A stretch of DNA of 64,000 nucleotides from NCBI GenBank assembly GCA_947493955.1, contig CANLSQ010000001.1:1054001-1118000 (forward strand), given 5' to 3'. Made by a program: the position numbers and the translations under genes. This document shows, in pieces, positions 55,878 through 57,669 of this stretch. The DNA comes from an uncultured Sphingomonadaceae bacterium (GTDB lineage Bacteria > Pseudomonadota > Alphaproteobacteria > Sphingomonadales > Sphingomonadaceae). Position 1 is the stretch's first letter; every line of letters begins with the position of its first letter. The notes beneath the pieces were generated by a model. It did no database searches. It was not told the DNA's origin and saw only the letters and a program-made list of their open reading frames with translations.

Positions 55878-57169
55878 AGCGCGTGAAACCGTCCCCAGTT
55901 GCGGTTTGACATTTGGACAGCCAGAATCAGGTCTTCATTTTCCTGCTCGGATTCCAGAACACGGCCATTTTCGTGCAACCACGCCAGACGTTTGCCGTCG
56001 GATACGGGCAATGTGACCGTTTCGATATTATGGTTACGCGACAAATTGGAAGTCACCATCTCGACAAGCGCATCAACACCCTGCCCGGTGGCGGCAGATA
56101 TTGGACAGACATTGTCGGGAATATGCTCCGGCAACTTTATGCTATCCGGATCATCGGGGTCGATCAGATCAATCTTGTTCCAGGCTTCAATGATGGGAGC
56201 CCCCTCCCCCTCTTCCAGATCGACACCTAGTTCCAACAGAATTTGTTCGACATCGCGGGCCTGTCCATCACTGGAAGCATGAGAGATGTCCCTGACATGG
56301 ATTATCACGTCCGCCGCAGTCACTTCTTCCAACGTCGCGCGAAAGGCGGCGACCAGCTGCGTCGGCAAGTCAGACACGAAACCAACCGTGTCCGAGATGA
56401 TCGCCTTGTCGTAGCCAGGCAGCGGAAATTGCCGCATGGTGGGATCCAGTGTCGCAAACAAAAGGTCTTCTGCGAACACTTCGGCGCCCGTCAGGCGATT
56501 AAAAAGTGTTGATTTACCGGCGTTTGTATAACCAACGAGCGCGATAACCGGCCACGGTGCCTTTTGGCGGCGCGAACGGTGGAGCGTCCGGGTTTTGCGA
56601 AGATGCGACAATTCCTTGCGTAATTTCGCCATACGGTCGCGGATCATCCGGCGATCCGATTCAATCTGTGTCTCACCCGGGCCGCCGAGGAAGCCAAAAC
56701 CACCGCGTTGCCGTTCAAGGTGAGTCCAGCTGCGAACCAAACGCCCTGCCTGATAGTCGAGATGGGCCAGTTCCACCTGCAGTCGTCCCTCGGCTGTCGC
56801 GGCCCTCGCGCCAAAAATCTCAAGAATCAGGCCAGTTCGGTCGATAACCTTGACCTTCAGCTCTTCTTCCAGATTACGCTGCTGGATAGCGCTCAACGTA
56901 CCATCAACAATCAGTATATTGGCATCGTCCTGCGCCAATATAGTCTTGATCTGATCGACTTGACCCGAGCCGAATAAGGTCCCCGGCTTTGGCGCACGAA
57001 CACTGAAATATTGCGCAGAAGTTGTTTCCAATCCGATTGCCAGAGCGAGACCAATTGCCTCTTCCAGTCTATATTCCAGCGCATTTTGACCAAGCGATCC
57101 CAGGTCGGGGTGAACAATGACGGCTTTGTCTTCACCGCCGTCCAGTTGCTTTTTTTCAAATGGGATCAA
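55874..57169 (-). CDS. hflX: GTPase HflX
   Basis: HflX is a ribosome-splitting GTPase induced by stress. The N-terminal HflX domain includes [20 protein letters not shown] (in part) and the [22 protein letters not shown] long helices with the [16 protein letters not shown] motif. The G domain has P-loop [26 protein letters not shown] and NKID. 431 residues. The start is TTG, overlapping the hfq stop (TTGA), so translation is coupled to the RNA chaperone gene. Confidence 0.95.
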
Positions 57170-57669
57170 TGGGAGCCTTCATCTGCATTATTATAATCGG
57201 CGAGATTGATGGCACCGTTTGGCTGAATGGTTGAAATTGCATGTTTGTAGACAAGCTGCGCCAAGCCTTCACGCTCCAGCAATATGCAGAACAAATCATA
57301 AGCCGCCACTTCGCCTTGCAGCATCACACCGTTTACCAGAAACATGGTGACCGGATCATTGCTGTCACGCACGGCGGTCAGGAACACCTCCTGCAATACG
57401 CCATTGCGGCCCTTGGCTCGTTCCATGAGATCGGAAAATGGCTGCATATCAAGGCTTTGTGATGGCATGATGGTCGAAATTGCATGTTTATAAACCAATT
57501 GTGACTGGCCATCACGCCGCAACAATACAGAGAAATTGTCGAACCAGGTCACAATACCCTGCAACTTTACGCCTTTGACCAAAAACATGGTCACTGGCAT
57601 TTTTGATTTGCGGAGAGAGTTTAAGAAGAGGTCTTGCAAATTATTTGATTTATCGGTCATTTTTGACAT
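57166..57669 (-). CDS. hfq: RNA chaperone Hfq with two fused Sm domains
   Basis: Hfq binds sRNAs and mRNAs and matches them. Unlike the usual 70-100-residue protein, this 167-residue chain has two complete Sm domains: residues 11-69 and 92-150. Sm2 YKHAISTI occurs twice (60-67 and 141-148), VTMFLV.GV.LQG occurs twice, and proximal-site glutamines are Q12 and Q93. The rim basic patch (LRKSK) is kept in domain 1 but reads VRDSND in domain 2. A trimer of this chain would give the six-fold ring. It sits in the conserved ntr-hfq-hflX operon. Confidence 0.96.

Follow-up and report, generated by a model that had tools for sequence, protein, structure and literature searches.

The hfq gene of an uncultured Sphingomonadaceae bacterium (57166..57669, minus strand; positions are those of the window, the whole 64,000-nucleotide stretch of DNA analysed) encodes an RNA chaperone of 167 amino acids with two Sm domains in one chain, and raises the question of whether the two domains are equivalent partners in the Hfq ring. 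The chain consists of Sm domain 1 (residues 11-72; 57454..57639, minus strand), a linker (residues 73-91; 57397..57453, minus strand; helix predicted at residues 76-84), Sm domain 2 (residues 92-154; 57208..57396, minus strand) and a C-terminal tail (residues 155-167; 57169..57207, minus strand). An earlier note on this DNA had placed two full Sm motifs in the chain, and the open reading frame and two matches to the Pfam Hfq family (PF17209) agree with it, coordinates included; the Q12/Q93, two LQG and two YKH motifs that it listed are all present. In a search of the bacterium's own genome, the PF17209 matches reached 107.3 bits (domain 1, E 9.7e-31) and 84.3 bits (domain 2, E 1.5e-23), E-values that exclude chance, and the profile search detected no second Hfq locus at E <= 0.001. 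The whole protein scored 188.1 bits against PF17209 (cut-off 27, in two stretches), 179.6 bits against TIGR02383 (cut-off 61.7), and 294.2 bits against NF010691, the NCBIfam equivalog for the double-domain form (cut-off 270; residues 3-164 on positions 15-175 of 176). The window Hfq is a member of the already known double-domain Hfq family, and its two domains are 63% identical to each other.

The locus and its published background

On the minus strand the genes run ntrC-like, ntrY-like, ntrX-like, hfq, hflX-like, the ntr names being inferred from Pfam domains and gene order. The upstream neighbour of hfq encodes a sigma-54 response regulator (57793..59175, minus strand; identified by Pfam and called ntrX-like from the adjoining NtrY_N kinase); on the other side lies the gene of an hflX-like GTPase (55874..57169, minus strand), whose open reading frame, as mechanically called, shares 4 bases with the end of hfq and may have a different true start. 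An hflX match flanked hfq in all 30 single-domain loci from the order's other families and in 77 of the 80 named double-domain loci, so that the window gene looks like an ordinary chromosomal hfq. A match to ntrX was present near hfq in 77 of the 80 named double-domain loci, taken with longer flanks, compared to 0 of the 30 loci of the order's other families (L003-L032) in the stretch examined. Frame 1 of the plus strand is interrupted by stops across 57166..57669. Two in-frame ATGs, M1 and M4, stand at the start of the gene (57660-57669); many relatives align only from the residue equivalent to M4 onwards, so that the first ATG may precede the true start by three codons and translation may begin at M4 (57660). 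Translation of domain 2 on its own from M82 was considered and rejected: this residue was not conserved among 35 aligned sequences, and inspection by eye of the window DNA upstream of its ATG showed nothing resembling a Shine-Dalgarno sequence. Scans of the region found 2 promoters (1.0 expected) and 1 terminator (0.9 expected), and Rfam, at its gathering threshold, gave no match in 50000-64000.

The earlier note had mentioned double-domain Hfq from sphingomonads, and both the NF010691 score and a 2010 paper (PMC2877685) bear this out; the fusion itself was previously known, and what is added here is the asymmetry between the two domains. The excerpt of that paper describes two Sm-like domains in Zymomonas mobilis Hfq, common to six other Sphingomonadales species, and asks whether three double-domain proteins suffice for a ring. 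The Zymomonas protein (ZMO0347; NF010691 / PRK14091) resembles the window Hfq in its two Sm domains per chain; a split of charge or residues between the domains, described here for relatives of the window, is not mentioned in the excerpt. Among the open-licence PMC papers searched, PMC2877685 was the only one whose retrieved passages mention two Sm-like domains (those of PMC5107571, PMC10725011, PMC5770649, PMC13414033, PMC5575007, PMC11770335 and PMC5606850 do not mention two Hfq domains), and neither a described domain split nor a double-domain Hfq structure was found there. A search of the PDB matched 35 distinct sequences, each in one stretch only. Sun et al. (2002) may contain an earlier mention of double-domain Hfq. 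Another Sphingopyxis (L105) carries a double-domain Hfq, and Hfq-dependent sRNA regulation is reported, in the excerpt of PMC6563040, for Sphingopyxis granuli TFA.

Distribution and origin of the fusion

Hfq was matched in 388 of the 397 genomes of the family sample, and 320 were above the NF010691 cut-off; the other 77 include 9 genomes in which no Hfq was matched, along with diverged doubles and Hfq of the single-domain form. Of 289 genomes in the class sample 4 exceeded the cut-off, all of them in the window's family, and 0 of 14 control genomes outside the class did so, at a cut-off below which an unrelated fusion could score. In trees of HflX the double-domain rows formed one group each time: 54/54 in a quick tree of 87 rows (support 98), 30/30 in a careful tree of 54 of these 87 rows (100/97; the long branches L158, L004, L005, L007 and L018 were among those left out), and 79/79 in a quick tree of 99 rows (96; 91 after re-rooting). 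The single-domain members of the window's family fell outside the double group (20 in the 87-row, 15 in the 54-row and 14 in the 99-row tree). Multiple origins and secondary loss of the second domain were not seen, each HflX tree needing one state change. When the domains were treed separately, domain 1 and domain 2 each formed one group (supports 85 and 83; only 59 columns). As read from these trees, the fusion has one origin, with no loss among the rows sampled.

Two genomes carried additional Hfq matches. G400 (84% complete) has a double-domain Hfq and a second one on another contig (L180, L182), whose first-domain match covers only profile positions 31-63, perhaps because of a contig end or because the assembly is mixed. 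G538, from another family of the same class, has single-domain Hfq matches in two places, one of them normal and the other more diverged (113.1 and 71.4 bits; L177, L183).

Differences between the two domains

The domains were compared in four samples. Set A comprised the window and 79 loci, from the best 80 of 584 closest to the window protein (titles mostly Sphingomonas and Sphingobium; L110, with a mis-called start, was left out); set B, 111 doubles (the window and L033-L142) chosen because they resemble the window or the family model; set C, 30 doubles from 20 genera, hand-picked towards the weak E-values of the family sample; and set D, one representative per genus for 79 genera including the window, the genera being judged double from family-sample E-values and 18 of them taken from set C. 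Set A is biased to the loci nearest to the window, and set D gives the fairest view of the asymmetry. The residue table of doubles and singles left out L162 (a fragment) and L171 (motif not found); tail and linker charges left out these two and L164, a frame with a stop whose row lacks the C-terminal part. L172, which duplicates the L158 sequence from the same genome, was counted among the 21 single-domain members of the family for residues and core charge.

The rim was scored as the number of basic residues at E. coli positions 16, 17 and 19. The window carries R20-K21-S22-K23 in domain 1 (57601..57612, minus strand) and R101-D102-S103-N104-D105 in domain 2 (57355..57369, minus strand), where one basic residue of the three remains (R16 is kept, 17 and 19 are not). 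All three positions were basic in domain 1 of every row (80/80 in set A, among the best 80 of 584; 111/111 in set B; 30/30 in set C; 79/79 in set D). In domain 2, zero, one, two and three basic residues were found in 13, 45, 11 and 10 genera of set D, in 4, 13, 59 and 4 rows of set A (best 80 of 584), in 8, 16, 71 and 16 rows of set B, and in 12, 16, 2 and 0 rows of set C. The same rim patch in both Sm domains was not the rule, domain 2 being fully basic in 10 of the 79 genera. The earlier note had claimed that domain 2 lacks the basic patch; the loss is real in set D (at most one basic residue in 58/79), and it is graded, being most complete at position 17 in the window's clade; 10 genera keep all three. 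A basic domain-2 rim in most relatives, which the note took as evidence against its own claim, was found in set A (63/80 keep two or three, among the best 80 of 584) and not in set D. In the window's clade (47 genera; HflX tree, support 97) no domain 2 has more than one basic rim residue; position 17 is basic in 0/47 and acidic in 43/47, these 43 being all the set D genera acidic at that position, and the acidic residue may reflect one change that was kept, not many. At position 16, 58 of the 79 genera, the window's among them, retain a basic residue in domain 2 (R in 53, K in 5). The distal-rim arginine pair, scored in set B, is RR in domain 1 of 111/111, and its first arginine is kept in domain 2 of 23/111.

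The difference extends to the charge of the domain cores, counted over positions 7-64. Core charge was +5 in domain 1 and -4 in domain 2 of the window, +5.01 and -1.01 in set B (n=111), and on average +4.76 compared to -1.14 in set D, where domain 1 was higher by at least 4 units in 79/79 genera; domain 1 exceeded domain 2 in 117 of 118 doubles (the 111 and 7 of the divergent genus g13, described below). The mean core charge of single-domain relatives was +3.87 (n=30) and +4.00 (n=21), indicating that the change lies in domain 2, domain 1 having remained basic. The linker was on average close to neutral (-0.50, n=111), and the C-terminal tail was acidic (-4.91 in doubles; -4.10 and -4.35 in single-domain proteins), the double form having one such tail per two Hfq domains. 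Domain 2 evolved 2.3 times faster than domain 1 in set B (mean p-distance 0.193 vs 0.083), a pattern compatible with both partial relaxation and specialisation. At the level of sequence, the split described in the earlier note is real; it is a graded one, and it reaches beyond the rim.

The earlier note had also stated that both domains keep the face residues, which holds for the pockets and fails at three other positions. Twelve pocket positions (8, 25, 29, 30, 32, 33, 42, 52, 55, 56, 57, 61) carry the expected letters in both domains of 79/79 genera; the E. coli residues Q8, G29, L32, Q33, F42, Q52, Y55, K56, H57 and T61 are found in both window domains, and positions 25 and 30 are F and V compared to Y and I in E. 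coli. In set D, however, 79/79 genera have K28 in domain 1 and N28 in domain 2, and 79/79 have K31 in domain 1 and M31 in domain 2; position 41 is N in domain 1 of 78/79 and L in domain 2 of 73/79. The corresponding window residues (domain 1 / domain 2) are K32 / N113 for E. coli N28, K35 / M116 for the distal K31, and N45 / L126 for the proximal Q41 (K32 to K35, 57565..57576; M116, 57322..57324; L126, 57292..57294; all minus strand). We take positions 28 and 41 to have roles on the Hfq faces. Single-domain rows have N28 and K31 in 51/51 and N41 in 50/51, indicating that the derived letters are K28 in domain 1, and M31 and L41 in domain 2. The excerpt of PMC6422490 describes the purine site of Pseudomonas Hfq as Tyr25 of one monomer and Leu26', Ile30' and Leu32' of its neighbour; given a site shared in this way, a Lys28 beside a neighbour without Lys31 may maintain one lysine per site. 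Fixed differences of residue and charge are observed between the domains, together with the charges of tail and linker.

One genus (g13; L163, L165-L171), with genomes of 2.1-2.8 Mb, has a double-domain Hfq diverging fast in both domains, and its representative in set D is one of its less diverged members. Among 7 rows of this genus, position 31 of domain 2 is M in 4, A in 2 and L in 1, and this domain keeps Q33 in 3 rows and L41 in none; in domain 1, K28 is present in all 7 and H57 in 5, and position 31 is K in 3 and R in 4. L169 and L170 have lost H57 from domain 1 (YKQG), and their domain 2 keeps FKHA.

An alternating ring and its alternatives

AlphaFold modelled the single chain (35 sequences; mean pLDDT 88.4, pTM 0.84) as two helix-plus-five-strand units joined by a short linker helix, the pTM suggesting a defined mutual placement of the two domains. 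The Foldseek matches listed were single Hfq chains, with Caulobacter crescentus Hfq (PDB 6gwk) first (80% identity over 65 columns). We consider it probable that three chains form one ring in which the domains alternate, with pockets all round, the charge for annealing on domain 1, and three tails. Three chains would close into a pseudo-hexamer, and all six positions would keep the checked pockets, for uridine on one face and for A-R-N on the other; RNA could still be held round the whole ring, since the pocket residues are kept at all six positions. The positive charge driving RNA annealing would sit at the three domain-1 positions, those of domain 2 being roughly neutral or negative. With one acidic tail per chain, three tails would serve three basic patches, so that the tail-to-patch ratio of ordinary Hfq would be kept with both numbers halved. 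A firm functional claim for this ring is weakened by the 10 of 79 genera with a fully basic rim in domain 2, by the 63/80 rows of set A (best 80 of 584) with two or three basic residues there, by the faster evolution of domain 2 in set B, and by the departures in g13.

The closest solved sequence, that of Caulobacter Hfq (6gwk; PMC6561178), matches domain 1 of the window (E 3.6e-32). According to the excerpt of that paper, it has a short acidic tail, whose acidic tip packs onto R18/K19 of the rim, and a rim patch (R18, K19, K21) like that of window domain 1. As a single-domain protein it has six identical rim patches and six tails, whereas domain 2 of the window lacks most of the patch. E. coli Hfq has one domain, a long tail, and the same rim and K31 in every subunit. 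In RIL-seq experiments in this species (excerpt of PMC12262471), R16A nearly abolished sRNA-mRNA chimeras and K31A lowered them almost four-fold; the R16A mutant was still functional in some regulation assays, a point against the proposed role of the rim split.

Two alternatives to the functional side of the alternating ring are not exclusive in their odds: both concern its consequence and are compatible with a ring of three chains. Domain 2 may be a relaxed duplicate that merely completes the ring, its rim and charge drifting without a specialised role, which we regard as rather doubtful. Its 2.3-fold faster evolution, its highly varied rim letters, and the minimum of 8 changes, over the 79 genera of the HflX tree, between rims with and without a second basic residue are as expected from such drift; however, domain 2 has fixed letters of its own (M31 and N28 in 79/79, L41 in 73/79), it keeps all 12 pocket residues in 79/79 genera, and acidic position 17 is mostly kept in the window's clade (43/47), which may be a single inherited change. 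Slightly less credible, and in our view unlikely, is that the alternation is of little consequence and Hfq function ordinary, the ring having enough rim charge and RNA using one or two positions at once. R16, without which few chimeras form in E. coli (excerpt of PMC12262471), is indeed basic in domain 2 of 58/79 genera, the window among them, but the gap in core charge between the domains, at least 4 units in 79/79 genera, is not what this explanation leads one to expect. Finally, it is very improbable that six domain-1 units form one ring and six domain-2 units another, with six linkers between them: each domain was indeed modelled with the helix-plus-five-strand pattern of an Sm fold and the linker has about 21 residues, but the single-chain pTM of 0.84 suggests, weakly, a fixed placement of the domains.

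The asymmetry of the two Hfq domains is near-fixed across the sampled genera. For the alternating ring, a further-reaching statement is possible and held tentatively: six-fold Hfq symmetry may have been permanently broken in one bacterial family, each ring being built of three fused dimers, with six intact base pockets but only three annealing-competent rim sites, with a distal lysine lost at position 31 of domain 2 and one gained at position 28 of domain 1, and possibly with sRNA and mRNA seated in a fixed register. Dissecting Hfq rings is difficult, since any change shows at all six positions. If the ring model is true, the double-domain protein offers two non-equivalent sets of positions, with which the rim patches and acidic tails needed for sRNA-mRNA annealing could be counted, and single-domain species within the same family are ready-made controls. 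Sm/LSm rings elsewhere have gone from identical to different subunits in evolution; double-domain Hfq, if it builds the alternating ring, would be a bacterial case of this subunit divergence, reached by fusion.
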